Below, in pieces: positions 3,001 through 32,199 of a DNA stretch of 64,000 bases (its first letter is position 1; each line of letters opens with the position of its first letter). Under the pieces are notes generated by a model. That model did no database searches, was not told where the DNA came from, and worked only from the letters and a program-made list of their open reading frames with translations. The position numbers and the translations under genes were made by a program. Source of the DNA: Rubrivivax sp. Its GTDB lineage: Bacteria; Pseudomonadota; Gammaproteobacteria; Burkholderiales; Burkholderiaceae_C. The stretch spans positions 1 through 64,000 of the forward strand of contig JADCGP010000015.1 in assembly GCA_020248915.1 (NCBI GenBank). Direction: 5' to 3'.

Positions 3001-6000
3001 ATGCCGGCAGCAACCGGCTCGAGGGATTGGGCGGCAACGACTCGCTCAATGGCCGGGCGGGCCACGACACGCTGGTCGGCGGCGACGGCGACGACGACCT
3101 GCAGGGCGGCAAGGGCGACGATGTCCTGCAAGGCGGCGCCGGCAACGATCGACTGATCGGCTATGCCGCCTGGTGGGACGATGCGCTCGACGTGCTCGAC
3201 GAAGCCGGCGCCGACGTGCTGGATGGCGGCGCGGGCAACGACAGGGTCTTCGGCGGCAAGGGCAGCGACACCTACCTGTTCGGGCGCGGCGACGGGTCCG
3301 ACGTCATCGGCGAGAGTGCGGCTGCCTTGCCGGCCGACACCGACGTGCTGCGCTTCAAGGCCGGCGTGCTGCCGGGCCAGGTGAGCCTGCACAAGGTGGG
3401 CGGCTCTCTGGTGGCCTTGCTCGATGCCGGTGGCGGGCAGGTGGAGATGACCGGGTACTACGGGTCGACCCCCGGCGCCTCGATCGAGAGGATCGAGTTC
3501 GCGGACGGCACGGTGTGGTCGGCGCCCGACATCGCCGCCCGGGTGAGCGCAGGCGCGCCGTCCAGTGCCTCGGGCACGGCCGGCAACGACGTGTTCGCGG
3601 TGGACGACGAGCAGGACACCATCGCCGAGGCCGCCGGCGGAGGCATCGACACCGCCGTGGCCTCGCGCAGCTACGCGCTGCCGGCGAACGTGGAGAACCT
3701 GACCCTGGTGGGGTCGCTCGCCCTCGACGGCACCGGCAACGACCTCAACAACGTGCTGCGCGGCAACGATGCCGACAACGTGCTCGACGGCAGGGGCGGC
3801 ATCGGCAACGTCGTCTTCGGTGTCGATCTGGGTTGGGACGTGGCCTACGGCGGCAAGGGCAACGACCGCTACGTGAACATCGAGACGATCGTCGAGCTGC
3901 CGGGCGAAGGCGTGGACACGCTGGCCACCATCTACAGCGCAACCCTGCCGGCCGAAGTGGAGAACTACGACCTGAACGACGGCACGGGCCGGCACCTGGC
4001 CGTCGCCGTCACCGCCACCGGCAACGCGCTCGACAACACGATGTGGAGCAGCGGGCTGGGCTTCCAGGGCGACACCCTGGACGGCGGGGTCGGCGCCGAC
4101 ACGATGATCGCCCGCGGCTGGGACAGCGTGATCTTCGTCGTGGACAACCCCGGCGACGTGGTGGTGGCGTCGCCGCAGGGTGGCCTGTTCGACGAGGTGA
4201 GGAGTTCGATCGACTATGCGCTCGGCCGCCACGTCGAGAACCTGAAGCTCACGGGCACCGAGGCCCTGCTCGGCATGGGCAACGAGCTGAACAACGTGAT
4301 CACCGGCAACGCCGGCTCGAACGTGCTGCTGGGCCTGGACGGGAACGACACGCTCGACGGCGGGGCCGGCGACGACACCCTGGTCGGCGGCGCGGGCAAC
4401 GACACGTACCGCTTCAACGTCCTGTCGGCCACCTCCACCGGGCACGACGTCATCGACAACTTCGATGCCGGCCCGGAACGCAACGATGCCGTCGTCTTCA
4501 ACACCACGGCGAGCAACCTGCGGATCATCCGACGCGGGGAGGACCTGTCCATCGGCTGGACCACGGGGTGGTCGAACGTCTCGTCGGTGACGCTGAAGTC
4601 GTTCTTCGCCGCCGTCGACGCGCGCGATCACCGGATCGACAGGATCGGCTTCTCCGACGGCACGATCTGGAACGCCGACCAGCTCGCGGCGGTCGCCGAG
4701 CTCAACTTGCTGCCCAACGTCATCAACGGCACCGCCGGTTCCGACATGAACCTGCGGGCCACCTGGCGCAACGACTGGATCCACGGCTTCGCCGGCGACG
4801 ACTGGATCTTCCTGGGCGGTGGCGAAGACACGGCGGTGCCCGGTGCCGGCGCCGACTACATCTCTGCCAGCGACGGGCGGGACACGGTCGTGTTCGGCCG
4901 CGGCGACGGGACGGACCGGTTCCTCCGCGGCGACGAGCAGGACGTGCTGCGCTTTGCCGCCGGCGTGGCGCCTTCCGACGTGCAGGTCCGCACGCTGGCG
5001 CCGGACGCCGAGGGTCGCGTGGACCTGCTGTTCACCATCGTCGGCACGTCGGACAGCCTGCAGGTCACCAGCGCCACGGGCGACTACACGCCGCATGCGG
5101 TGACCGTGCAGTTCGCGGAGTCGACGACCGTCTGGTCGCCGGCCGACGTGATCGCGAGGACGCGGCTGGGCACGCCCGGCGCGGACTCGCTGGTGGGCTC
5201 GGCGCAGGCGGATTCGCTGTCGGGCGGCGGAGGCAACGACTCGCTGTACGGACTCGGCGGGGCCGACACGCTCGACGGGGGTGACGGCGACGACCTGCTC
5301 GAGGGCGGCGCCGGTGCCGACCGGCTCGTCGGCGGCACCGGCAACGACACCTACGTCGTCGACGACGCGGCCGACGTGGTCGTCGAGGCTCCCGCGGCCG
5401 GCGTGGACACCGTGCAGTCCTGGGTGACCTACGCCTTGGGCGCGGACCTCGAGAACCTGACGCTGCTGGGCAGCGCGGCGATCGACGCCACCGGCAATGC
5501 GCTGGCCAACTCGCTCACGGGCAACGGCGCAGACAACCTCCTGGACGGCGGCGCCGGAGCCGACACCATGGCCGGTGGCGCGGGGAACGACACCTACGTC
5601 GTGGACAACGTCGGCGACAGCCTGACCGAGGCCGCCGGCGCCGGCACGGACACGGTGCGCTCGAGCGTCACGTGGACGCTCGGACCGAACTTCGAGCACC
5701 TCACGCTCACGGGCGCGGCGGCCATCAACGCCACCGGCAACTCGGCGAGCAACACCCTGCGCGGAAACGCGGGGGCGAACGTGCTCAACGGCGGCAGCGG
5801 GGCGGACACGATGATCGGCGGCGCCGGCGACGACACCTACGTCGTCGATGTCGCGACCGACGTCGTCACCGAGCTGGCCGGGCAGGGCGTGGACACGGTG
5901 CAGGCCTCGATCGGCTACACGCTCGGCGCCGAGCTCGAGAACCTGACGCTCACCGGCTCCGGGGCCATCAGCGGAACCGGCAATGCCGCGAACAACGTCC

Positions 6001-7238
6001 TCACGGGCAACGCGGCGGCGAACGTGCTGGTCGGCGGCGCAGGCAACGACACGCTGGACGGCGGCGGCGGCGCCGACACGCTGAGCGGCGGTACCGGCGA
6101 CGACATCTATGTGGTCGATGCGGCGGGCGACGTGGTCAACGAGCTTGCAGGGGCGGGGACGGACCTGGTCCGCTCGGCGGTCTCCTACACCCTGGGCGCG
6201 CAGGTCGAGAACCTGACGCTCACCGGCGCGGCGGCGATCAACGGCACCGGCAACGCCGCGGCGAACGTCATCAACGGCAATGCGGCCGCCAACGTGCTCG
6301 ACGGCGGCGCCGGCGCCGACACGATGGCGGGAGGCGCCGGCAACGACACGTACGTGGTGGACAACGCCGGCGACATGATCAACGAGGCGGCCTCCGCCGG
6401 CACCGACCTGGTGCTGTCGGCGATCACCCTGACGCTCGGCAGCAACCTCGAGAACCTGACGCTCACCGGAACCGCGGCCATCAGCGCGACGGGCAACGCG
6501 CTCGACAACGTGCTGCGCGGCAATGCGGCAGCCAATGTGCTCGACGGAGCGGCCGGCAGCGACACGATGATCGGCGGCGCGGGCAACGACACCTATGTCG
6601 TCGATGCCGCGGGGGACCTGATCACCGAGCTCTTGAACGAGGGCATCGACCTGGTGCAGAGCTCGATCACGCTGACGCTGGGCAGCAACGTCGAGAACCT
6701 GACCCTGACCGGAGCCTCGGCCATCGGCGGCACCGGAAACGCCCTCGACAACGTGATCACCGGCAACGGCGCGAGCAACGCGCTGGGCGGCGGCGCCGGC
6801 AACGACACGCTGGACGGCGGCGCGGGCAACGACACGCTGGCCGGCGGAACGGGTGCCGACAGCTACGTGTTCGGGCGCGGCTGGGGCCTCGACACCATCC
6901 AAGAGAACGACGGCACCGCGGGCATCCTGGACCAGGTGCGCTTCGGTGCGAACATCGTCGTTGCCGACACGGCCTACGCTCGTGTCGGCAACAACCTGGA
7001 GGTGTCGATCCGGAACACGGGCGACAAGCTGGTCATCCAGAACTGGTACGCCGGCGCACAGCACCAGGTCGAACTGTTCCGTTACTCGAATGGCACGGTG
7101 CTCAGCGCGTCCCAGGCCGCGGGGCTGGTGGCGTCGATGGCCGCCTTCACGGGGCCGCTCGACGAGCCGGCGATGGAGTCTCGGGGGCCGATGCGGACCA
7201 CGCAGTGGAGATTGGGCGATCTGGCGCTTCCGGTGTAG
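3..7238 (+). CDS. Giant RTX (hemolysin-type calcium-binding) protein with lipase-like N-terminal part, 5'-truncated by the window edge
   Basis: The frame is open to the left edge (G-T-N-N-S precedes the first GTG at 18), so the true start lies outside; about 2,411 residues are visible. Near the start is a lipase-type nucleophile elbow, GHSLGG, with the Ser at about residue 43 counted from the GTG at 18, in a class-3-lipase-like context. From about position 1040 onward the protein is dominated by nonapeptide repeats of the GGxGxDxLx type, which bind calcium and fold as parallel beta rolls in proteins secreted by type I systems. Blocks such as [10 protein letters not shown] and [10 protein letters not shown] resemble the hemolysin-related repeat domain, and a similar block ([11 protein letters not shown]) lies near the C-terminus, where a type I secretion signal is expected. 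Role inferred: secreted Ca-dependent lipase/esterase or surface protein. No T1SS genes are in the window. Base use is as GC-rich as its neighbours. Confidence 0.9.
5308..6800 (+). repeat. Six tandem ~80-residue RTX modules inside the giant gene
   Basis: Six consecutive modules share the order [18 protein letters not shown], a short acidic stretch, TLG...[15 protein letters not shown], then N.LDGG. They are alike at DNA level too (for example the repeated gagaacctgacgctcac). More diverged copies occur earlier, near 2820-3030, 3600-3790 and 4130-4330. The array probably grew by unequal recombination. Boundaries are approximate. Confidence 0.85.
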
Positions 7239-20881: not shown

Positions 20882-21781
20882 ATGCCCGCCACGCTCGAAG
20901 GCCAGCTCGTCGTCGCCATCTCCTCGCGCGCGCTGTTCGACTTCGAGGAGGAGAACCGCGTCTTCGAAGCCGCCGACGACCGCGCCTACATGCGGCTGCA
21001 GCTCGAGCGGCTGGAGCAGCCGGCGCAGCCGGGCGTGGCGTTCTCGCTCGTCAACAAGCTGCTCGCCTTCAACCAGGATGGCCAGCCCCGCGTGGAGGTG
21101 GTGATCCTGAGCCGCAACGACCCCGTCTCCGGCATGCGGGTGTTCCGTTCCGCCCGCCGCTACGGGCTGCCGGTGCAGCGCGGGGTGTTCACCCGCGGCC
21201 AGAGCCCGTGGCGCTACCTGGAGCCGCTGGCGGCCAACCTGTTCCTCAGCACCAACGAGGCCGACGTGCGCTCGGCCCTGGCCGCGGGCGTGCCGGCGGC
21301 GCGCGTGTTCCCGCAGAGCGCGCGTGCCTCCGAGGCCCACCCCGACGAAGTGCGCATCGCCTTCGACGGCGACGCGGTGCTGTTCTCCGACGAGGCCGAG
21401 CGCGTGTACCAGCGCGAGGGCCTGGCCGCCTTCCAGGACCACGAGCACGCGCGCGCCGCCACGCCGCTGGCGCCCGGCCCCTTCAAGCCGCTGCTGGAGG
21501 CGCTGCACCGCCTGCAGCAGCAGCCGGCCGCTGCCATGCGGCTGCGCACCGCGCTCGTCACCGCCCGCAGCGCACCGGCCCACGAGCGCGCGATCCGCAC
21601 GCTGATGGCCTGGCAGATCGACGTCGACGAGGCCATGTTCCTCGGCGGCCTGCCCAAGGGCCGCTTCCTGCGCGAGTTCGAGCCCGACTTCTTCTTCGAC
21701 GACCAGACGGGTCATGTCGAGAATGCGGCGCCGCACGTGCCGGCGGGGCATGTGGCTTCGGGGGTCGTGAACGACGGGTAG
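20882..21781 (+). CDS. 5'-nucleotidase (cytosolic 5'-nucleotidase family, PF06189)
   Basis: 299 residues covering the family from its conserved start (LVVAISSRALFDFEEENRVF, like the family's D/EN region) through EVVILSRNDPVSGMRVF, LFLSTNEADVR, the catalytic-site-like IAFDGDAVLFSDEAE and the C-terminal RTLMAWQIDVDEAMFLGG with FDDQ. It dephosphorylates nucleoside 5'-monophosphates. The start at 20882 matches the family N-terminus; longer upstream frames are shadow sequence. Confidence 0.9.
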   Translation: MPATLEGQLVVAISSRALFDFEEENRVFEAADDRAYMRLQLERLEQPAQPGVAFSLVNKLLAFNQDGQPRVEVVILSRNDPVSGMRVFRSARRYGLPVQRGVFTRGQSPWRYLEPLAANLFLSTNEADVRSALAAGVPAARVFPQSARASEAHPDEVRIAFDGDAVLFSDEAERVYQREGLAAFQDHEHARAATPLAPGPFKPLLEALHRLQQQPAAAMRLRTALVTARSAPAHERAIRTLMAWQIDVDEAMFLGGLPKGRFLREFEPDFFFDDQTGHVENAAPHVPAGHVASGVVNDG

Positions 21782-21878
21782 GGGCCGGGTGGGGCCCCGG
21801 TCTGGCCCTGGTCTGGCCCTGTCTTGCCGTGGGCGGGCCGGGCTTGTGGTCGCTGCGGTCTCGGTGCTTGGGCTGCGG

Positions 21879-22072
21879 GCCGCGCGGCCGGGTCTCGCCC
21901 CGGCGGGCGACCCCCTTTCTTTGCTCGTGCAAAGAAAGGGGGCAAAGAAACACGTGGATGCCCGGATGCGATGGCGCGCTGCGGAGGCGGTCCGCATGGC
22001 GCCTGCACGCCTGGGCAACGGACACCCTCGAACCCGCAGCCCGCTTCGGGTTGCGCTCGACAGTTCGGCGCC
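21879..22072 (+). repeat. Left copy of a ~195-bp inverted repeat with a 14-bp hairpin
   Basis: This stretch matches the reverse complement of 26961-27155 over its whole length at an estimated 80-85% identity, starting at gccgcgcggccgggtctcg and ending near cggcgccg. It contains a perfect stem (21911-21924 and 21929-21942, loop TCGT) built on CTTTCTTTGC/GCAAAGAAAG, followed by the conserved gcaaagaaacacgtggatg. The rest of the 21782-22280 gap holds no credible gene. Together with the right copy it brackets the defence islet. Confidence 0.9.
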
Positions 22073-22280
22073 GGCGCCGGCGCCGGCCGAGGCGGCAGGG
22101 GCTGTGCTGGCACATGAGGCCTCCGACCCGGTCGCTTGCCGTGTTCGGTGGATCGACGTGTGCGCCAGGGTTGCCACCTCCCCAGCGCTTGCCATGTCCG
22201 CAGCCCGGCCGACCCGCACTGCCCCGTTGTCCCGGTGGCCAGGATCGTCGATGCCAAGGACGACGCGACGGCCGCGCGGG

Positions 22281-22493
22281 CTACAGGTCGCCGGGCTTCA
22301 GGCCGGTGTGCTTGGCCACACGGGCCGGCATCTTCGGGCCGATCTCGTCGCCATCATGGAAGGCGAACACCACGTCGGGCCAGCCGGCACGCTCCAGCGT
22401 CTTGTGCGAACCGGTCTGCCGCTTGATCCGCCAGCCCACGCGCTGCAGCGCCGCCAGCACCTGCCGTGCCTTGGCTGCCGGCCAGGCGCTCAC
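22281..22493 (-). CDS. hicA: HicA-family toxin (mRNA interferase)
   Basis: 70 residues with the HicA double-stranded-RNA-binding-like fold: KARQVLAALQRVGW, the catalytic histidine in RQTGSHKTLER (GSH motif), and PDVVFAFHDGDEIGPKMPARVAKHTGL. HicA toxins cleave mRNA and tmRNA. The ATG overlaps the hicB stop by four bases. The antitoxin is encoded first, the reverse of the classic hicAB order, an arrangement also known. Confidence 0.9.
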   Translation of the reverse strand: MSAWPAAKARQVLAALQRVGWRIKRQTGSHKTLERAGWPDVVFAFHDGDEIGPKMPARVAKHTGLKPGDL

Positions 22494-22699
22494 GCGGCGC
22501 TGGGGAGGCTGAAGCGGATCTCCAGCGGCTGGGCCTCGCCGTGTTCCAGCCGGTCGGCCAGCACGCGCAAGGCCAGGATCTCTGCCTTGGCCATGGCTTC
22601 AGCCGCGCTGGCGCCGTACGCCAGCACGCCGGGCAGCTGCGGCACCTCGGCCAGCCACCGGCCATCGTCTTCAAGCTCGCATTCCAGTTCGAAGTTCAT
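22490..22699 (-). CDS. hicB: HicB-family antitoxin (short form)
   Basis: 69 residues with the HicB partial RNase-H-like fold: ELECELEDDGRWLAEVPQLPGVLAYGASAAEAMAKAEILALRV. It ends soon after the core and has no C-terminal ribbon-helix-helix or HTH domain, so DNA-binding autoregulation is not evident. Neutralises the toxin encoded directly downstream. It is divergent from the methyltransferase relic at 22768. Confidence 0.88.
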   Translation of the reverse strand: MNFELECELEDDGRWLAEVPQLPGVLAYGASAAEAMAKAEILALRVLADRLEHGEAQPLEIRFSLPSAA

Positions 22700-22767
22700 G
22701 GCTGCGCCCCAGGTCCGCTGGCAGTGTACCGGCCGGGCCCGCTGAAGCCACCACAGGGAGGGCCCGC

Positions 22768-23190
22768 ATGGCCACCATGAAGTCCAAGAAGACAGGCAGC
22801 ACCTTCGTCTGCGTCGATGCGCTCGAGCACGCCGACGACAAGCGCAAGAGCATCCCGACGGCCGAGCACCAGAGCCTGACGACCGGCGCCGCGCGCAAGC
22901 CCATGCAGGTCAGCCATTCGCGCAGCGTGTCGAACGCCGATCGCCTGAAGGCCGAGAACGAGGCCCGAACCACGACCGGGGCCCGCGCAGCTCGTCTGGC
23001 GCGGCAGGGATCCACAGGAGTGGATGGACCGCGTCGTCAACCCACCGCCGCCCTGCATCCCGGCCGGCGCCGACGAGACCGATTCCCGCGCGCACGAACA
23101 GAACCGGCCCAATCCCATGATCCTGGGCGACGGCCTGCCGGTGAGGGCGAGCCTGGCGGAGCGCGAGGGTCTTCGAGCTTGGGTTCGCGG
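22768..23190 (+). pseudogene. Broken 5' end of a type III-like (Mod) site-specific DNA methyltransferase
   Basis: Remains in two frames match the conserved N-terminus of a widespread Mod-like adenine methyltransferase family. From the ATG at 22768: VDALEHADDKRKSIPTAEHQ and then KPMQVSHSR. After a frame change, at 22982-23080: AQLVWRGRDPQEWMDRVV followed by GADETDSRAHEQN, and at 23117-23170 ILGDGLPVRASLAEREGL. In the intact family the last block (consensus close to ILGDSLQVMASLAEREGL) directly precedes the FDPPYG catalytic motif; that and everything after it are missing. The frame then runs into the restriction-modification gene at 23303. Family consensus is from memory. Confidence 0.75.
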
Positions 23191-23302
23191 AGCGAGGAGA
23201 TTCAGGGGGCAAGAGCGGCTGCAGGACGACTGCAGGCGGCATGCGGCGTTCAGGTCGAGCCGATGCGGCGTGGTTCCCAACGGGCGCGGCCCGGAGTGCA
23301 CC

Positions 23303-26300
23303 ATGTCCAATCCCTATCATGAACTCATGGAGACAACGACAACAGCGGTTCAGGCGTTCATCGAACGCTGGCAGGGAGTGACGGCGAGCGAGCTGGCCAC
23401 CGCCCAGACCTTCGTGATGGACCTGTGCGAGCTGCTGGGCGTGTCCAAGCCGCACCCCACGCCGGCGCAGGACTACATGTTCGAGCGCCCCGTGACCTTC
23501 AGCCACGGCGACGGCTCCAGCAGCGCCGGCCGCATCGACTGCTACCGGCGCGGCCACTTCGTGCTGGAGGCCAAGAAGCTGAAGGCCGGCGCCCACACCA
23601 AGGGATTCGACGACGGCCTGCTGCGTGCCCGCAGCCAGGGCGAGAGCTACGCCCGTGCGCTGCCGGCCGAGGAAGGCCGCCCGCCCTTCGTCATGGTGGT
23701 GGACGTCGGCACCGTCATCGAGGTCTACGCCGAGTTCAGCCGCAGCGGCGGCACCTACACGCCCTTCCCCGACCCGCGCAGCCATCGCATCCTGCTCGCC
23801 GACCTGGCCAAGCCCGAGGTGCTGGAGCGGCTGCGCAAGATATGGACACGACCGGATGACCTGAACCCGGCGTCGATCGCCGCCAAGGTCACCCGGGATG
23901 TGTCCAACAAGCTGGCCCTGCTCGCCCGCTCGCTCGAACAGGCGGGGCACGCGCCGCAGACCGTGGCCGCGTACCTCTCGCGCTGCCTGTTCAGCATGTT
24001 CGCGGAGGACGTCGAACTGCTGCCCAAGGGCTCTTTCCAGGCGCTGCTGCTGCAGCACCGCGAGAACCCCGTCACGCTGCAGCTGATGCTGCGCAGCCTG
24101 TGGGCCGACATGGACCGGGGCGGCTTCTCGGTGGCGCTGGTGCAGTCGGTGCTGAAGTTCAACGGCAAGCTGTTCAAGGGCGGCAGTGCCGACGGCTACA
24201 GCCTGCTGCTCACGCCCGAGCAAGTCGACCTGCTGGTGCAGGCCGCCCGCGCCAACTGGCGCGAGGTCGAGCCCGCCATCTTCGGCACCCTGCTGGAACG
24301 CGCGCTGGACCCCGACGAACGCCACGCCCTGGGCGCCCACTACACGCCGCGCGCCTACGTGGAACGGCTGGTGCTGCCCACCATCATCGAGCCCCTGCGC
24401 GCCGAGTGGGCCAACGCCCAGGCCGCCGCGCTGCTGCTGGCGCACGAGGCCGCCGAGCTGGAGGCCCACCCGCCCGAGGTCAAGACCAAGAAGGACTTCG
24501 CCGCGCTCGACCGGCACAAGGCCGCCGTGCGCGCCAAGTGGGCCGAGGCCCGCCGGCAGGTGGGTGTCTTCCTGCACCGCCTGTGCACCCTGCGCGTGCT
24601 GGACCCGGCCTGCGGCAGCGCCAACTTCCTGTACGTGACGCTGGAGCACCTGAAGCGCCTGGAAGGCGAGGTGCTGAACCAGCTCAGCGCCCTGGGCGAC
24701 ACCCAGGACGCGCTGGACCTGGCCGGCGAGACCGTCACCCTGCAGCAACTGCGCGGCGTGGAGCTGAACGAGCGCGCCGCCGCGCTGGCCGAGCTGGTGC
24801 TGTGGATCGGCTTCCTGCAGTGGCACATCCGCACCCAGGGGCGCGCCAACGTGGCCGAGCCCGTGGTGCACGACTACGGCAACATCGAGCACCGCGACGC
24901 CGTGCTGGCCTACGACCGCCAGGAGCCGATGCTTGATGCCGCCGGCAAGGTGCTGACCCGCTGGGACGGCGAGACCGTCAAGCCGCACCCCGTGACGGGC
25001 CAACCCGTGCCCGACGAAGCCGCCCGGGTGGTGCAGTGGCACTACGTGAACCCCCGGCAGGCCGCCTGGCCGAAGGCCGACTTCATCGTCGGCAACCCGC
25101 CCTTCATCGGCAACAAGCGCATGCGGGTGGCCCTGGGCGACGGCTACGCCGACGCCCTGCGCGCCGCATGGCCCGAGGTGCCCGAGAGCGCCGATTTCGT
25201 CATGTACTGGTGGCACAAGGCCGCCGAGACGGTGCGCCAGGGCCAGGCCGAGCGCTTCGGCCTGATCACCACCAACAGCCTGACGATGATCTTCAACCGG
25301 CGGGTGATCGAGGCGCACCAGACCGCCACCCCGCCGCTGAGCCTGGCCTACGCCGTGCCCGACCACCCGTGGGTCGACAGCGCCGACGGCGCGGCGGTGC
25401 GCATCTCCATGTCCGTGGGCGTGCGCGGCAGCGCCGAGGGCAGGCTGCAGACCGTCACCCAGGAGCGGGAGGCCGACGGCGGCGAGGTGGCCGTCGAGCT
25501 GCTGACCCGGCAGGGCGTCATCCATGCCGACCTCAAGGTCGGCGCCAACGTCGCCGGGGCGAGGCGGCTGCAGGCCAATGACCGGCTGTCGAACCGTGGC
25601 GTGATACCCCACGGGGCGGGGTTCACCGTCACCCCAGACGAGGCTCGGAGCCTGGGCCTTGGCACCGTGCCGGGCCTGGAGAAGCACATCCGCCCCTACC
25701 GCAACGGCCGCGACCTGACCGGCACGCCCCGGGGCGTGCTTGTCATCGACCTGTTCGGGCTCCAGGCCGACGAGGTGCGGCAGCGTTTCCCGGCGGTCTA
25801 TCAGTGGCTGCTGGAGCGGGTCAAACCCGAGCGGGACCAGAACCCCCGCCCGAAGCGGCGCAACTTCTGGTGGCGGTTCGCGGAGGACCAGCCCCGGATG
25901 CGGGAGTCCATCGAGGGCTTGCCGCGCTACATCGTCACCGGGCAGGTGGCGAAGCACCGGGTGTTCCAGTGGCTGGACGCCTCCATCCTGCCGGACGACA
26001 AGCTCATCGCCGTGGCCAGCGCCGACGCCCTGCACCTGGGAGTGCTGTCCAGCGGAGTGCATGGCGCCTGGGCGCTGACGGCTGGTGGGCGCTTGGGGGT
26101 CGGCAACGACCCGGTTTACAGCAAGTCCACCTGCTTCGAGGCGTTCCCCTTCCCCGACCTGGACGCCGCCGGGGCGCTGGCCGAGCGCATCCGCACGCTG
26201 GCCGAGCAAATCGACGCCCACCGCAAGGCCCAGCTCGCGGCCCACCCGGACGCCACGCTCACGGCCACCTACAACGTGCTGGAGAAGCTGCGCAGCGGCG

Positions 26301-26842
26301 ATGCGCTGACCGCCAAGGAGAAGGTGGTCCACGAACACGGCCTGGTCGGCGTGCTCAAGAGCCTGCACGATGAGCTGGACGCTGCCGTGCTGCAGGCCTA
26401 CGGCTGGGCCGACCTGACCCTGCCGGCCGACACCGACACGCTGCTGCTGCGGCTGGTGGAGCTGAACGCCAAGCGCGCGGCCGAGGAAGCGGCCGGCACG
26501 GTGCGCTGGCTGCGCCCGGAGTTCCAGCAGGCGGGGCAAGGCGAGCAGGCGGCGCTGGAGACCGGGGCGGAGGACGAGGGCGAGGAAGAGACCACCGACG
26601 TGAAGCCTACCCAGGCCGCCGTGGTGCAGCGCCCGTGGCCCACGGGGCTGACCGAGCAAATCAAGGCCGTCGCCGAGGTGCTGGCCAGTGCCGGGCGCAG
26701 CCTGGACCTCGAAGGGCTGGCCGGGCACTTCAACGCCCGGGGTCGCTGGCGCGACCGCCTGCCCACGCTGCTGGACACCCTGGTGGCCTTGGGCCGCGCC
26801 CGCGTGGTGGACGGTGGCCGCTGGGTTGACGCCGGGGTGTAG
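23303..26842 (+). CDS. MmeI-like (type IIL/IIG) single-chain restriction-modification enzyme
   Basis: 1,179 residues from ATG 23303 (GGAG six bases upstream; ATG 23327 is an alternative). N-terminal nuclease motif D79-X9-E89-A-K91 (in RIDCYRRGHFVLEAKK), the spacing seen in MmeI. A helical spacer (about 180-340), GAHYTP at 344-349, adenine-methyltransferase motif I LDPACGSAN at 433-441 and motif IV NPPF at 598-601. Then a target-recognition region with the family's PRYIVTGQVAKHRVF and STCFEAFPFPD, and an acidic linker (about 1075-1100) leading to a C-terminal winged-helix-like domain absent from the shorter MmeI (about 920 residues). It is predicted to methylate and cut the same asymmetric site. 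No BREX or DISARM partner genes are present. Confidence 0.88.
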   Translation: MSNPYHELMETTTTAVQAFIERWQGVTASELATAQTFVMDLCELLGVSKPHPTPAQDYMFERPVTFSHGDGSSSAGRIDCYRRGHFVLEAKKLKAGAHTKGFDDGLLRARSQGESYARALPAEEGRPPFVMVVDVGTVIEVYAEFSRSGGTYTPFPDPRSHRILLADLAKPEVLERLRKIWTRPDDLNPASIAAKVTRDVSNKLALLARSLEQAGHAPQTVAAYLSRCLFSMFAEDVELLPKGSFQALLLQHRENPVTLQLMLRSLWADMDRGGFSVALVQSVLKFNGKLFKGGSADGYSLLLTPEQVDLLVQAARANWREVEPAIFGTLLERALDPDERHALGAHYTPRAYVERLVLPTIIEPLRAEWANAQAAALLLAHEAAELEAHPPEVKTKKDFAALDRHKAAVRAKWAEARRQVGVFLHRLCTLRVLDPACGSANFLYVTLEHLKRLEGEVLNQLSALGDTQDALDLAGETVTLQQLRGVELNERAAALAELVLWIGFLQWHIRTQGRANVAEPVVHDYGNIEHRDAVLAYDRQEPMLDAAGKVLTRWDGETVKPHPVTGQPVPDEAARVVQWHYVNPRQAAWPKADFIVGNPPFIGNKRMRVALGDGYADALRAAWPEVPESADFVMYWWHKAAETVRQGQAERFGLITTNSLTMIFNRRVIEAHQTATPPLSLAYAVPDHPWVDSADGAAVRISMSVGVRGSAEGRLQTVTQEREADGGEVAVELLTRQGVIHADLKVGANVAGARRLQANDRLSNRGVIPHGAGFTVTPDEARSLGLGTVPGLEKHIRPYRNGRDLTGTPRGVLVIDLFGLQADEVRQRFPAVYQWLLERVKPERDQNPRPKRRNFWWRFAEDQPRMRESIEGLPRYIVTGQVAKHRVFQWLDASILPDDKLIAVASADALHLGVLSSGVHGAWALTAGGRLGVGNDPVYSKSTCFEAFPFPDLDAAGALAERIRTLAEQIDAHRKAQLAAHPDATLTATYNVLEKLRSGDALTAKEKVVHEHGLVGVLKSLHDELDAAVLQAYGWADLTLPADTDTLLLRLVELNAKRAAEEAAGTVRWLRPEFQQAGQGEQAALETGAEDEGEEETTDVKPTQAAVVQRPWPTGLTEQIKAVAEVLASAGRSLDLEGLAGHFNARGRWRDRLPTLLDTLVALGRARVVDGGRWVDAGV

Positions 26843-26960
26843 CCGACGCAGCCCGACTGCCGATGGGTGGCAGTGCTGAGCATCAGGCCCGGCAGAACTT
26901 CACCCGGGCTTCGGCGCCCCTGGGAGCCAGACCCATGAAGACCAACCGGCTGGCGCGCTG

Positions 26961-27155
26961 CGGCGCCGAGCCATCGAGCGCCACTCGAAGCGCGCCGTGC
27001 GCGCGCGGGTGTTGCGAGCCCAAGCGCGCCCATGCCATGCGGCCCGCCTCCGCAGCGCGCTGCCCTCCCAAGACATCCACGTGTTTCTTTGCCTCCTTTC
27101 TTTGCACGAGCAAAGAAAGGAGGTCGCCTGCCGGGGCGAGACCCGGCCGCGCGGC
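26961..27155 (-). repeat. Right copy of the ~195-bp inverted repeat
   Basis: Reverse-complement partner of 21879-22072. The stem is 27092-27105 and 27110-27123 with loop ACGA (TCGT on the other strand). Compared with the left copy one stem pair is C-G on the left and T-A here, a compensatory change. The remainder of the 26843-27226 gap shows no gene. Confidence 0.9.
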
Positions 27156-27226
27156 ACCCCGCCGAAGCCCCGCCGAAGCCCCTCCAGACGGGCCACGAGA
27201 GGCTCGGGCCGCCAGGGGCAGCCACC

Positions 27227-27766
27227 TCACGCCGCCGAGAACTCCTTCTCGTGCATCCAGGCCGCGTGCCTGGGCGCGCGCCGCGTGCGGCTCCACTCCT
27301 CCAGCATCGCCCACTTCACCTCGTCGAGCCGGCGCGACATCTCCGGCGTCGCCGTGTCCGCCGCCAGCTCGATGCGATGCCCGTTGGGGTCGAAGAAGTA
27401 GATCGACCGGAAGATCGTGTGGTCGGTGGGGCCCACCACGTCGACACCGGCCGCCTGCAGCCGCTTCTGCGTCGCCTCGAGCGTCTTCACGCTGTCGACC
27501 TTGAAGGCGATGTGCTGCACCCAGTCCGGCGTGTTCGGGTCCTTGCCCATGCCGGGCGAGTTCGGCAGCTCGAAGAAGGCGAGGATGTTGCCGCCGCCGG
27601 CGTCGAGGAAGACGTGCATGTAGGGGTCGGGCGCGTGCGTGCTCGGCACCTGGTCCTCGGCGATCGCGAGCACGAACTCCATGCCCAGCATCTCGCGGTA
27701 CCAGTCGACGGTCTCCTTGGCGTCGCGGCAGCGGTAGGCGACGTGGTGGATGCGCTCGATCTTCAT
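27227..27766 (-). CDS. VOC (glyoxalase/dioxygenase superfamily) protein
   Basis: 179 residues from the ATG with GGAG upstream. Two beta-alpha-beta-beta-beta modules: MKIERIHHVAYRCRDAKETVDWYREMLGM with a first metal-ligand His and YMHVFLDAGGGNILAFFEL, then WVQHIAFKVDS, VVGPTDHTIFRSIYFFDPNGHRIELA with a terminal Glu ligand. The resemblance is to ring-cleavage and isomerase-type VOC proteins rather than small GlxA. Substrate not deducible. Divergent from the YbaN gene. Confidence 0.88.
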   Translation of the reverse strand: MKIERIHHVAYRCRDAKETVDWYREMLGMEFVLAIAEDQVPSTHAPDPYMHVFLDAGGGNILAFFELPNSPGMGKDPNTPDWVQHIAFKVDSVKTLEATQKRLQAAGVDVVGPTDHTIFRSIYFFDPNGHRIELAADTATPEMSRRLDEVKWAMLEEWSRTRRAPRHAAWMHEKEFSAA

Positions 27767-27871
27767 GTCCGGGTCTCCGGCAGGGCGCGTGGGCGCAGAA
27801 GGGCGGGGCGCCGACGGGCGCCGACGGGCGCCCGGGCCGGTGATGATGCGCCGCCGGCGCGTGGCGGCGCG

Positions 27872-27885
27872 TTGACCCCGGTCAA
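27872..27885. promoter_or_regulatory. FNR/Anr-type palindrome TTGACCCCGGTCAA
   Basis: It matches the TTGAY-N4-RTCAA form used by FNR/Anr/Dnr proteins in betaproteobacteria, with 6-bp perfect arms. It lies in the divergent region between the VOC gene and the YbaN-like gene, centred 55 bp before the latter's ATG. A universal stress protein gene follows. Oxygen control is an inference. Confidence 0.45.
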
Positions 27886-27933
27886 GGCCGGGGCGGCGCG
27901 GCACCTGCCCGAAGGTCGTGCGACCATCGCGGC

Positions 27934-28305
27934 ATGGTGCGGCGCGTGCTCGGTCTGCTGCTGTGGCGGCTGCTGGCCGCCACCAGTCTGCTGCTGGGGC
28001 TGGTCGGCGTGTTCGTGCCGGGCCTGCCCACGGTGCCGTTCCTGCTGCTGGCGGCGTGGGCGGGTGGCAAGGGCTGGCCTGCGCTCGAGGCCTGGCTGCT
28101 CGCGCACCCGCGCCACGGCCCGGCCATCCGCCGCTGGCGCGACCACCGGGCGGTGCCGCGCCGCGCCAAGTGGCTGGCCAGCGCGACGATGCTCGCCAGT
28201 GCCGCGCTGGTCGGCCTGTCGTCCGCCCCGGCCTGGCTCAAGCTCGGGATGGTGCTGCTGCTGGCCTGCGTGGCCACGTGGCTGTGGCGGCGGCCCGAGC
28301 TCTGA
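27934..28305 (+). CDS. YbaN/DUF454 inner-membrane protein
   Basis: 123 residues with the family's signature LLGLVGVFVPGLPTVPFLLLAAWA near the start, a cytoplasmic basic stretch (HPRHGPAIRRWRDHRAVPRRAK) and two C-terminal membrane helices. The function of DUF454 is unknown; it is often near oxygen-responsive or heme genes. It lies downstream of the FNR-like palindrome. Confidence 0.92.
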   Translation: MVRRVLGLLLWRLLAATSLLLGLVGVFVPGLPTVPFLLLAAWAGGKGWPALEAWLLAHPRHGPAIRRWRDHRAVPRRAKWLASATMLASAALVGLSSAPAWLKLGMVLLLACVATWLWRRPEL

Positions 28306-28359
28306 TGGCTGTGATGGCACGGCCGGCGCGTGGGCCGCGCCGCGATCACGTTGCGCGCG

Positions 28360-28377
28360 CTTTGCGTCAGAGCAAAG
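28360..28377. promoter_or_regulatory. Palindrome CTTTGC-N6-GCAAAG upstream of the universal stress gene
   Basis: Six-base perfect arms around gtcaga, located 84 bp before the ATG of the universal stress protein. Binding factor unknown. Confidence 0.35.
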
Positions 28378-28460
28378 TCGCCCGCCGCCGGCCGCTCTAG
28401 ATTGCGCTTCGGCGGCGGTGCGGGGCATCGGGCCCAGGCTGCCGGCCGCGGGAGCCTTGC

Positions 28461-28904
28461 ATGTACCGACATCTCCTCGTCCCCATCGACGGCTCCGACC
28501 TCAGCGACCGGGCCATCCGCGAGAGCATCGAGCTGGCCCGGCAGCTGGGTGCGTCGATCACCGGCTTCGTGGCCGAGCCGCTGGCGCCGCTGCCCGCGCC
28601 CGGGCAGCCGCAGAGCCTGATGCGCAAGGAGGCGCTCGACCACGACGCGCTGACCGAGTCGCACGCGCGCGAGATCCTGACGCGCTTCGAGGCCCAGGCG
28701 CGGGCGGCCGGCGTGCCGTTCGTCGGGCGGCACTCGCAGGCGCCGCGCGTCGACCGCGCGATCGTCGCCGAGGCCGAGGCCCAGGGCTGCGACATGATCG
28801 TGATGGTGACCCACGGCCGCGGTGCGTTCGGCGAGTTCCTGTTCGGCTCGCAGACCAAGGCCGTGCTGTCGGGGAGCAACCTGCCGCTGCTGGTGCTGCA
28901 CTGA
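28461..28904 (+). CDS. Universal stress protein (UspA family)
   Basis: 147 residues with the Usp fold: MYRHLLVPIDGSDLSDRAIRES at the start, with the first-strand Asp that contacts ATP, and the C-terminal nucleotide loop DMIVMVTHGRGAFGEFLFGSQTKAVL (G-x2-G-x9-G-S/T form) ending LPLLVLH. Likely an ATP-binding Usp that supports survival under stress or low oxygen. Confidence 0.95.
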   Translation: MYRHLLVPIDGSDLSDRAIRESIELARQLGASITGFVAEPLAPLPAPGQPQSLMRKEALDHDALTESHAREILTRFEAQARAAGVPFVGRHSQAPRVDRAIVAEAEAQGCDMIVMVTHGRGAFGEFLFGSQTKAVLSGSNLPLLVLH

Positions 28905-29007
28905 GGCGCGCCGCGGCGGGGCGGCGCATCCGGGGGGCCGGTCTGCGGCCGGGTCTGCGGGTACGATGGGCTCCGCGTCGATCCCGGCGCGCCTTCGAGC
29001 CCACCCG

Positions 29008-30225
29008 ATGTCGTCCGGCAAGATCCTCGTCGCCCAGGGCGGCGGTCCCACCGCGGTCATCAACCAGAGCCTGGCCGGCGTCGTGCTCGAGGCGCGACGC
29101 CACCAGGGCGTGCGTCTGGTCTACGGTGCCCGCCACGGCGTGCGCGGCATCGTCAACGAGGACCTGGTCGACCTGACGCGCGAGACCAGCCACAACCTCG
29201 AGCTGGTCGCCGGCACGCCCGCCTCGGCGCTGGGCAGCACGCGCGACAAGCCGGACCTGAAGTACTGCCACGAGATCTTCCGCGTGCTGCAGGCGCACGC
29301 GATCGAGCACTTCTTCTACATCGGCGGCAACGACAGCGCCGACACCGTGCGCATCGTCGCCGAAGAGGCCACGAAGGCCGGCTACCCGCTGCGCGCGATC
29401 CACATCCCCAAGACGATCGACAACGACCTGGTCGGCAACGACCACACGCCGGGCTTTCCGAGTGCGGCACGCTTCGTGGCCCAGGCCTTCGCCGGGGCCA
29501 ACCTCGACAACGCGGCGCTGCCGGGGGTCTATGTCGGTGTCGTGATGGGCCGCCACGCGGGCTTCCTCACCGCCGCCAGCGCACTGGGTAAGAAGTTCCC
29601 GGACGACGGCCCGCACCTGATCTACCTGCCCGAGCGCGTGTTCGACGTCGGGCGCTTCCTCGCCGACGTGAAGGCGACGCACGAGCGCCACGGCCGCTGC
29701 GTGATCGCCGTGAGCGAGGGCATCCACGACGCCGGCGGGCAGCCGATCATCACGACGCTGGCCAAGGACATCGAGAAGGACGCCCACGGCAACGTGCAGC
29801 TGTCGGGCACCGGCGCGCTGGCCGACCTGCTGTGCGAGGAGATCAAGCAGAAGCTGAAGATCAAGCGCGTGCGCGGCGACACCTTCGGCTACCTGCAGCG
29901 CAGCTTCGTCGGCTGCGTCAGCGACGTCGACGCCCGCGAGGCGCGCGAGGTCGGCGAGAAGGCGGTCCAGTACGCGATGTGGGGCGACCGCAACGGCAGC
30001 GTCGCGATCCGCCGCACCGGCTTCTACTCGGTGGACTACGAGCTGCAGCCGCTCGAGGCCGTGGCCGGCCGGACGCGCGTGATGGAGGACGAGTTCATCG
30101 ACGCCGCCGGCACCGGCGTGACCGACGCGTTCCGCCTGTACCTGCGGCCGCTGCTCGGCTCGGGCATGCTCGACGCCTACCGGCTGCGGCCCAACGCGGT
30201 GCCCAAGGTGCTGCACCGCGGCTGA
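29008..30225 (+). CDS. 6-phosphofructokinase, probably pyrophosphate-dependent
   Basis: 405 residues. GGGPTAVINQS near the N-terminus, YIGGNDSADT at the donor site, IPKTIDNDLVGNDHTPGFPSAARF and GVVMGRHAGFLTAASAL. ATP-specific enzymes carry Gly at two donor-site positions (GGDGS and PGTID). Here the second Gly is Lys (PKTIDND) and the first loop reads GGNDS, the pattern of PPi-using or reversible enzymes. Phosphorylates fructose 6-phosphate. The start ATG at 29008 fits the family N-terminus. A second PFK gene follows 23 bp later. Confidence 0.9.
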   Translation: MSSGKILVAQGGGPTAVINQSLAGVVLEARRHQGVRLVYGARHGVRGIVNEDLVDLTRETSHNLELVAGTPASALGSTRDKPDLKYCHEIFRVLQAHAIEHFFYIGGNDSADTVRIVAEEATKAGYPLRAIHIPKTIDNDLVGNDHTPGFPSAARFVAQAFAGANLDNAALPGVYVGVVMGRHAGFLTAASALGKKFPDDGPHLIYLPERVFDVGRFLADVKATHERHGRCVIAVSEGIHDAGGQPIITTLAKDIEKDAHGNVQLSGTGALADLLCEEIKQKLKIKRVRGDTFGYLQRSFVGCVSDVDAREAREVGEKAVQYAMWGDRNGSVAIRRTGFYSVDYELQPLEAVAGRTRVMEDEFIDAAGTGVTDAFRLYLRPLLGSGMLDAYRLRPNAVPKVLHRG

Positions 30226-30248
30226 CCCGCGCGCGCACCGGTCCGGCC

Positions 30249-31301
30249 ATGCACGTGGGCATCCTCACCGGCGGGGGCGACTGCCCCGGCCTCAACGCGG
30301 TGATCCGCGCCGTGACGCTGTCGCTCGTGCGCCAGTGCGGGGCGCGCGTCACGGGCATCGAGCGCGGTTTCCACGGCCTGGTCGAGCGGCGCTCGCGGCC
30401 GCTGGCGCCGGCCGACGTGGCGCACATCCTGGCCGAGGGCGGCACCATCCTCGGCACGCACAACGCCTGCGACCCGTTCCGCTGGCAGGGCGCCGACCGC
30501 TCGGCCGACGCGCTCGACTACGCGCGCAGCCTCGGCCTCGACGCGCTGGTCGTCATCGGCGGCGACGGCACGATGGACATCGCCCACCGCATCGGGCAGC
30601 TCGGGCTGCCGGTGGTCGGCGTGCCCAAGACGATCGACAACGACCTGCCGGCCACCGAGCGCACCTTCGGCTTCGACAGCGCGGTGGCGGTGGTGGCCGA
30701 GGCGCTGGACCGCGTGGCCACGACGGCCCGCAGCCACGGCCGCGTGATGATCGTCGAGACGATGGGGCGCTACGCCGGCTGGATCGCGCTGGCCGGCGGC
30801 ATGGCCGGCGGCGCCGATGCGATCCTGCTGCCCGAGCTGCCGTTCTCGGTGGACGCGGTGGCCACTTTCGCCAAGGCGCGCGAGCGCGACAACGGCTGCA
30901 CGCTGGTTTGCATCGCCGAAGGGGCGCGGGCCGAGGGGCAGGGGCTGGTGGTGCGCGAGACGATCGCCTCGAGCCCCGACCCGCTGCGCCTGGGCGGGGT
31001 GGGCGGCTGGCTGCAGCAGCAGCTGCAGCCGCGCCTGGACAGCGAGGTGCGCAGCACGCTGCTCGGCCACACGCAGCGCGGCGGCACGCCGACGGCCTAC
31101 GACCGCGTGCTGGCCACGCGCTTCGGCTGGGCCGCCGCCGAGCTGGTGCGCGAAGGCCGCTTCGGCCGCATGGTGGTGCTGCGCGGCGAGGAGATCGACA
31201 GCGTCGAGATCGCCGGCATCGCCGGCCGCAGCCGCCCGGTGCCGCCCGACCACCCGCTGCTGCGCGCCGCGCGCGACACCGGCGTGATGCTCGGCCACTG
31301 A
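30249..31301 (+). CDS. 6-phosphofructokinase, group III, GGDG-type donor site
   Basis: 350 residues: MHVGILTGGGDCPGLNAVIRA, VVIGGDGTMDIAHRI, VPKTIDNDLPATERTFGFDSA, METMGRYAGWIA in the form VETMGRYAGW and HTQRGGTPTAYDRVLATRFG. Gly is kept in the first donor loop (GGDG, ATP type) but Lys is present in PKTID, the mixed signature of group III enzymes such as those of actinobacteria, where some use ATP and some PPi. Encoded directly after the first PFK and probably co-transcribed. Confidence 0.9.
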   Translation: MHVGILTGGGDCPGLNAVIRAVTLSLVRQCGARVTGIERGFHGLVERRSRPLAPADVAHILAEGGTILGTHNACDPFRWQGADRSADALDYARSLGLDALVVIGGDGTMDIAHRIGQLGLPVVGVPKTIDNDLPATERTFGFDSAVAVVAEALDRVATTARSHGRVMIVETMGRYAGWIALAGGMAGGADAILLPELPFSVDAVATFAKARERDNGCTLVCIAEGARAEGQGLVVRETIASSPDPLRLGGVGGWLQQQLQPRLDSEVRSTLLGHTQRGGTPTAYDRVLATRFGWAAAELVREGRFGRMVVLRGEEIDSVEIAGIAGRSRPVPPDHPLLRAARDTGVMLGH

Positions 31302-31332
31302 ACCGCCACGCCCGGCCACGCCGCCGCATGCC

Positions 31333-32199
31333 ATGACCCTGCCCCCGCCCGTGCCCGGAACCCGCCTCGACATCGGCGGGCTGGCCTGCTGGACCGCCGG
31401 CAGCGGCCCGCCGCTGGTGCTGGTGCACAGCGTCAACGCCGCCGCGTCGGCCGCCGAGGTTCGGCCGCTGTTCGAGGACGGCCTGGCGACGAACACCGTG
31501 TACGCGCCCGACCTGCCCGGCTTCGGCAGCTCGCCGCGCGAGCCGCGCGAGTACACGCCGCGCCTGATGACGGACGCGGTGCTCGCCGTCGTGCGCGCGG
31601 TGCGCGAGCGCCACGGCCCCGCCCCGCTGCCGGCGCTGGCGGTCTCGCTCGGCAGCGAGTTCCTCGCGCGGGCGGCGAGCGAGCAGCCGGGCTGGTTCGA
31701 GCGCATCGCCCTGGTCAGCCCCACCGGGCTCGACGGCACCGCGCTGCGCCGCGGCGCGGCCGGCTCCACGCGGCAGGTGCCCGGCGTGCTGCCGCTGGTG
31801 TCGCTGCCGCTGTGGTCGCAGGCGCTGTTCGGCGGCCTCACGCGGCCCGGCGTCGTGCGCTACTTCCTCGAGCGCACCTGGGGCGGCAAGGCGATCGACG
31901 AGGCGATGTGGGACTACGCGGTGCGCACCGCGCGCGAACCGGGGGCCCGCTTCGCGCCCCTGGCCTTCCTGTCGGGCAAGCTGTTCAGCGCCGACATCGG
32001 CACGGTGTACGAGTCGCTCGCGCTGCCGGTGTGGGCGAGCCACGGCACGCGCGGCGACTTCACCGACTACCGCGCCAAGCGGCTCTTCGAGGGCCGGCCG
32101 AACTGGCGCTTCGACGTGTTCGAGGGCGGCGCGTTGCCGTATTTCGAGCACCGCGCCGAATTCGCGGCGCGCTGGCGCGGGTTCCTGGGCGGCGGCTGA
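31333..32199 (+). CDS. Alpha/beta hydrolase
   Basis: 288 residues. Alpha/beta-hydrolase core: PPLVLVHSVNAAASAAEVRPLF (oxyanion-hole region), VYAPDLPGFGSS, and the nucleophile elbow ALAVSLGSEFLARA (S-x-G-S). The distal Asp is probably in the HGTRGDFTDY stretch and the His in PYFEHRAEFA. The substrate is unknown. Follows the PFK pair by 31 bp. Confidence 0.82.
   Translation: MTLPPPVPGTRLDIGGLACWTAGSGPPLVLVHSVNAAASAAEVRPLFEDGLATNTVYAPDLPGFGSSPREPREYTPRLMTDAVLAVVRAVRERHGPAPLPALAVSLGSEFLARAASEQPGWFERIALVSPTGLDGTALRRGAAGSTRQVPGVLPLVSLPLWSQALFGGLTRPGVVRYFLERTWGGKAIDEAMWDYAVRTAREPGARFAPLAFLSGKLFSADIGTVYESLALPVWASHGTRGDFTDYRAKRLFEGRPNWRFDVFEGGALPYFEHRAEFAARWRGFLGGG

Follow-up and report, generated by a model that had tools for sequence, protein, structure and literature searches.

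Defence islands and integration hot spots gather accessory genes, some of them for defence, at one site. How a chromosome acquires single defence genes when neither a transposase nor an integrase is involved has yet to be explained. Intergenic repeats of several kinds are the closest described relatives of the element studied here. In Pseudomonas fluorescens, five families (R0, R2, R6 and others) consist of inverted repeats around a variable core, fold into hairpins and were called MITE-like in the portion of the source used here (PMC2718517). REP/BIME elements, according to the corresponding portion of PMC2817692, are palindromic and intergenic and lie in alternating orientations.

The present element shares the inverted-repeat intergenic architecture of the P. 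fluorescens families. These families span 50-352 bp, however, and no gene-bearing copies are described in that portion of PMC2718517; they were set against our arms by description. The palindromic, intergenic and alternating arrangement of REP/BIME (PMC2817692) is also found, but the present arms measure about 200 bp. A search of titles and abstract starts in the open-licence literature returned no description of gene-bearing copies of such palindromic repeats, and the letters of the repeat matched nothing in that literature. As in defence islands, accessory genes, some for defence, are gathered at one site. In contrast to them, the present elements show no recombinase, hold few genes each and are bounded by a palindrome, and much of the cargo elsewhere is not for defence.

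Our preferred reading, which we hold at a probability of roughly 0.7, is that the two repeats around the islet are halves of one hairpin-forming intergenic element, and that the loop of this element is a recurrent site for foreign DNA of gene size, the islet included. If hairpin loops are such landing sites, the arms would offer a means of searching for small modules of accessory and defence genes.

Inverted arms and cargo of the islet

The window is the whole stretch of 64,000 nucleotides of Rubrivivax sp. DNA that was analysed (locus G000:C7). The first-pass annotation had described an islet in it between two inverted copies of a repeat of about 195 bp. Local alignment bore out the inverted pair, with 175 identities over 209 aligned bases and a score of 131, whereas slightly fewer than 500 stretches of 212 bp drawn at random from this sequence scored 32 at most. 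The length was somewhat underestimated, and the arms are 212-228 bp (Table 1). Two ungapped blocks, 21862-21960/27074-27172 and 21974-22073/26961-27060, are 92% and 76% complementary. Most likely, the two repeats are the halves of one palindromic element of about 420 bp.

The genes adjoining the islet, which the first-pass annotation took to be ordinary and for which we keep its names 5'-nucleotidase and VOC, stop 80 and 54 bp short of the arms, and every extra gene is located between the two arms. The G+C content in 500-bp windows is 0.68-0.74 across 22000 to 26999 and 0.70-0.77 in the windows either side. Other neighbouring genes (maiA, lrp, puuD, mmsA, era, queC, PFK and hydrolase) were named by eye from translations, not by family search.

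Table 1. Coordinates of the window element, its cargo and the other facing pairs of the same genome
Feature	Position	Strand	Evidence
Left arm of palindromic element	21862..22089	+	CM R1 73.6 bits at 21893-21958
Right arm of palindromic element	26947..27172	-	CM R1 76.4 bits at 27076-27141
Hairpin within left arm	21911..21942	.	Self-complementary match; pairing covaries across 51 arms, with controls
Hairpin within right arm	27092..27123	.	Self-complementary match; covariation across 51 arms
HicA toxin gene of toxin-antitoxin pair	22281..22493	-	Pfam HicA_toxin 44.6 bits
HicB-like antitoxin	22490..22699	-	UPF0150 21.1 bits, under Pfam cut-off 27.3; overlaps HicA start
Scrap resembling start of type III DNA methyltransferase	22768..22932	+	PADLOC MTase_III 20.4 bits, residues 1-55 only
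MmeI-like type IIL restriction-modification enzyme, 1179 aa	23303..26842	+	Pfam MmeI domains; PADLOC REase_MTase_IIG 1466 bits
Tight element	C8:63285-63703		Facing pair
Tight element, right end decayed	C7:94664-95063		Facing pair; right arm C7:94927-95063 without outer hairpin
Filled element, PDC-S11 gene inside	C2:54708-56973		Facing pair; PDC-S11 525 bits

The cargo had been listed as a HicB/HicA pair, a methyltransferase relic and a type IIL enzyme. The enzyme was recovered with PF20464, PF20465, PF20473 and PF20466 above cut-off in one chain. The MmeI N-terminal, helical spacer, methylase and target-recognition domains are all present, which on domain content would place it in the type IIL class. 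HicA also exceeded its cut-off, and the HicB-like gene beside it stayed below. The methylase scrap had no match in Pfam, and its likeness to type III methyltransferases is limited to their first ~55 residues; its putative identity as a methyltransferase relic is weakly supported.

Pfam and PADLOC scans of the cargo proteins detected no transposase or integrase among the islet genes, in agreement with the first-pass annotation. A composite or unit transposon has a transposase inside or at its ends, and the window cargo has none. An integron cassette array has an integrase and an attC site for each gene; the islet has several genes within one inverted pair and no integrase among them.

Related elements in the same genome

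The repeat had been called dispersed, and eight arms were indeed found in the genome of the window after 40 of the 164 first-look candidates were scored. They form four facing pairs, two of them tight and two filled. For eight single arms placed at random, the probability of at least one facing pair within 6 kb is 0.019, and four facing pairs arose in 0 of 20,000 simulations. One tight element (C8), folded as single-stranded DNA, gave z = -14 with 0 of 100 shuffles as good, as for any long inverted repeat.

The other filled element (C2) carries a gene of a PDC family, which we take to mean phage-defence candidate. Its left half is 90% and its right half 89% identical to those of C8, while left and right arms of the two are 71-76% identical to each other, giving two half-types. 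Because of this half-for-half match, C2 looks like an element of the C8 kind that holds the PDC-S11 gene between its halves.

The right arm of the window pair has 79% identity to the left arm of C8, 74% to that of C2 and 69-73% to right-type arms. Both window arms are thus somewhat nearer the left-half type, so the window element differs from a simple copy of the C2/C8 type, and there is room for a recombined pair. The first-pass annotation had favoured recombination, and in that explanation incoming DNA bearing arms would recombine homologously with a resident element and its loop content would be swapped. The dispersal of similar arms in this genome and the weakly left-like right arm of the window fit such a swap. 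On the further evidence given below, we hold it to be rather unlikely.

Covariation of the arm hairpin and relation to an Rfam family

Each arm contains a hairpin. Across 51 arms, 97.4% of cells were paired, and two-sided changes occurred in 8 of the 9 pairs. The number of cells changed on both sides was 51, versus 12.4 in shuffles and 3-12 when the pairing was slid. None of 500 shuffles was as high on any covariation measure, although related sequences can exceed such shuffles.

A relation to the Rfam family TwoAYGGAY (RF01731) was found in Pseudomonas. In the portion of PMC2864571 used here, this family is described as probably an RNA and probably not cis-regulatory. At one Pseudomonas mangrovi locus (L128), it matched above the gathering score at 5408-5474 on the minus strand and 5723-5790 on the plus strand, so that both halves of the palindrome match on opposite strands. 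Inner hairpins reached the gathering score at 6 of 18 further Pseudomonas loci (one match each) and, in the search that covered L128, in 2 of 12 sources, and matches in L296, L330, L334, L366 and L368 were below it. The match covers, however, only positions ~45-113 of 168, and at the window element (21500-27500) the family had no match at E up to 1. The L128 matches are inner hairpins of the palindrome, one per strand, so TwoAYGGAY may in part represent a repeat in the DNA and not an RNA.

The window locus in relatives

The 5'-nucleotidase gene was found in 72 of 81 genomes of the genus and the VOC gene in 39 of 58 genomes, the genome of the window being counted for the former. At 29 relative loci, VOC was not seen within up to 1.5 kb beside the 5'-nucleotidase (some contigs end sooner). 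The two genes are about 20 kb apart in one relative (G060), and the relative loci examined included no empty version of the window element. An arm 2.2 kb from VOC in another genome (G017) was considered as the same site and rejected, as it lies on the other side of VOC. Between the window (20882-32199) and G060 (C1:1095748-1116891), the block VOC-USP-PFK-hydrolase has opposite orientations with respect to the 5'-nucleotidase, and one breakpoint lies at the islet.

Filled and empty elements in Pseudomonas

Filled and empty elements, both halves retained, were found at the same loci in Pseudomonas. At the maiA locus, Pseudomonas subflava (G500) has 1.8 kb with two ORFs between the halves, and G517 has the same element with a loop of 135 bp. 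Homology between the two reaches the loop edges, at 88.6% identity for the left side, which includes maiA, and 88.4% for the right side. In Pseudomonas sp. BMS12 (G487), both inner halves are present around a loop of ~200 bp and the left outer hairpin is missing. At 28 of 30 maiA loci, no arm above 1 bit was detected within the 0.6-1.5 kb examined, a distance too short to reach the arm of G487.

The puuD-mmsA locus was examined in 16 genomes. Facing arms enclose a NERD gene in G487 and a DUF2059 gene in G621, two different cargoes in what appears to be one element. G500 has the left arm and a NERD gene of 71% identity, and its right arm is absent. Clear tight pairs are present in G668 (634 bp) and G517 (756 bp), and G656 has a tight pair of 797 bp whose right arm is weak. 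Weak or displaced pairs were seen in G578 and G572, a left arm only in G696, and no facing pair in the other seven. Only G487, G500, G517 and G696 were found to have acetT as left neighbour; in G621, G668 and G656 the site is therefore identified by its right-hand neighbours and by the element. The loops of G621 and G517 are common up to the junctions, where 645 bp replaces 10 bp with no obvious duplication. These two filled/empty loci make the route of entry testable at base resolution.

An empty site with a single repeat copy had been expected to support the earlier proposal, and the empty sites found in Pseudomonas retain both arms instead. Since they do, and since C2 matches C8 half for half, recombination between two independent repeat copies is unsupported. 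The parts of that proposal which held are the dispersal of the repeat and, in Pseudomonas, the difference in content between relatives.

Origin of the cargo

Homologues of the MmeI-like enzyme (E <= 1e-150) were found in 43 of 397 genomes of the family, own genome included. The best one, from another genus, is 94% identical in amino acids. Nucleotide homology with G437, of another genus, (92%) covers 23307-26814 only, i.e. the ORF alone. At the four best homologue loci, inverted repeats of at least 40 bp were absent and no arm scored above 7 bits. The idea that the arms carried the restriction enzyme was therefore rejected for these four, and the enzyme seems to have moved as a gene.

These results also bear on the swapping of loop content by homologous recombination. 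Different cargo at one element would be expected from it. But the four best enzyme homologues examined are without arms and have the ORF alone in common, and the homology between filled and empty maiA elements reaches the loop edge on both sides.

Cargo restricted to defence was rejected as well. NERD, DUF2059, Imm33, permease, TspO, pseudouridine synthase, sulfotransferase and transporter genes occur between or beside arms, together with ORFs without family matches.

Proposed entry of genes into the loop

In the reading that we prefer, the resident palindrome would be a large hairpin-forming intergenic element with a short variable loop, in which foreign DNA of gene size becomes established while both halves are kept. 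The window islet may have arisen in the same way as the filled elements of Pseudomonas. The differences between filled and empty elements would be gains rather than losses; cargo differences could, however, possibly also be losses. Entry would probably be by illegitimate or break-linked capture in the loop, not through the arms, and a non-coding loop may help cargo to persist.

Palindromes are known to be prone to breakage at the centre of the hairpin. A bolder form of this reading is that large chromosomal palindromes are capture sites that need no recombinase: the hairpin centre would be broken (e.g. by cleavage of the SbcCD type), repair would capture gene-sized DNA, and the result would be a swappable and nestable port across Beta- and Gammaproteobacteria. 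We regard this as doubtful.

The palindrome may also be irrelevant. MITE-like repeats and accessory genes could collect wherever an intergenic insertion is harmless, with their nesting partly due to chance. This explanation is a serious rival because genes outside the arms, including ones just outside, vary too at the two Pseudomonas loci (p524, p333, p285). Loops contain other small inverted repeats, which also fits. On the other hand, the genes next to the window element end within 80 bp of the arms with all extra genes inside, the left neighbour of C2 likewise ends ~70 bp from its arm, and what appears to be one element at puuD-mmsA holds two different genes. We consider that harmless insertion could well be the whole explanation, though we lean against it.

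Distribution of the arms

The exact core of the repeat occurs in 6 of 81 genomes of the genus and 3 of 397 sampled genomes of the family, own genome included in both. A scan of named genomes gave at least 118 stretches with related arms, in Pseudomonas, Lysobacter, Pseudoxanthomonas, Marinobacterium, Testudinibacter, Rubrivivax, Thiobacillus, a Chitinivibrionales metagenome bin and others. A tight facing pair was present at 66 of the 118 named loci listed and a wide one at 2. The other 50 showed no facing pair, and at 24 of them the room was less than 800 bp. An inner-half partner was sought for 24 lone arms: it was tight for 6 and distant for 1, and no clear partner was seen for 17.

Three R1 searches of 9, 9 and 12 genomes (30 other genomes) contributed 150, 130 and 65 matches, after 20 of 150 in the second were dropped as partial or self-overlapping. 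Facing neighbours within 15 kb among the matches listed numbered 38, 23 and 14, of which 32, 22 and 13 were tight, i.e. at least 75 facing pairs with 67 tight; the limit for tight was 750 bp in one count and 800 bp in the other. Another 26 neighbours within 15 kb among the matches listed were not facing, and more than half of the arms among these matches had no facing partner among them. The eight wide facing pairs comprise five that hold genes and three with only longer loops, to which no gene was assigned from the ORF list. Four of the five gene-bearing pairs have family matches, and the G500 pair has two ORFs matching none. The predominance of tight pairs would also be expected if insertions simply collect where they do no harm.

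Tight copies are ~350-800 bp long, and their loop is short and variable. They have the terminal inverted repeats and short core of MITEs, in two of the four pairs of this genome as well as in the tight pairs counted above. The arms could accordingly be terminal inverted repeats of a transposon-like unit with cargo, and tight copies its internal deletions moved in trans. Long inverted ends, the existence of tight copies and the MITE-like label given to similar repeats in the portion of PMC2718517 used here all suit this explanation. At one locus (L190), an ORF that by eye resembles a transposase is located at ~0.9 kb from two arms, and not between a detected pair. No transposase, however, was found among the window cargo or the other cargo proteins scanned, and elements that keep their place next to the same genes vary in content. 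We consider a transposon-like unit quite improbable and retain the reading of a resident element with a receptive loop.

Plasmids were considered as carriers. A query with one Pseudomonas arm matched 7 plasmid records, all of them of large, non-mobilizable plasmids, and a plasmid-borne element was rejected.

Several further arrangements were observed. In the Chitinivibrionales metagenome bin (G499), there were 45 arm matches, those listed being mostly single, on the minus strand and several at contig ends; its phylum is far from Pseudomonadota, which could mean real spread or a binning error. Variable genes just outside the arms at L334:6281-7138 and L296:6277-7851 encode a trypsin-like protein of LmuA/PDC-S45-like character and one that matches HEC-02B weakly. 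Proteins at L335:4992-5828 (G572:C24, Pseudomonas) and L189:10541-11293 (G488:C8, Marinobacterium) are 66% identical over 240 residues; each follows a plus arm, in different genera, with no right-hand arm seen, and the latter has weak PDC-S69 and DrmC matches.

In two Testudinibacter species, a permease common to both lies between an arm and a pair. In Marinobacterium sedimentorum, locus L187 (G488:C3:72000-91000) has arms at 6008+, 7009+, 8849+, 12375-, 12864- and 13390- and another minus arm at 4899. This concentric nest encloses a transporter gene and a RelA/SpoT-domain gene (PDC-S33), a defence candidate. Lysobacter sp. M2-1 (G491) has, besides the usual facing pairs, four outward arm pairs ~180-240 bp apart, e.g. 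C1:1914552-1914788.
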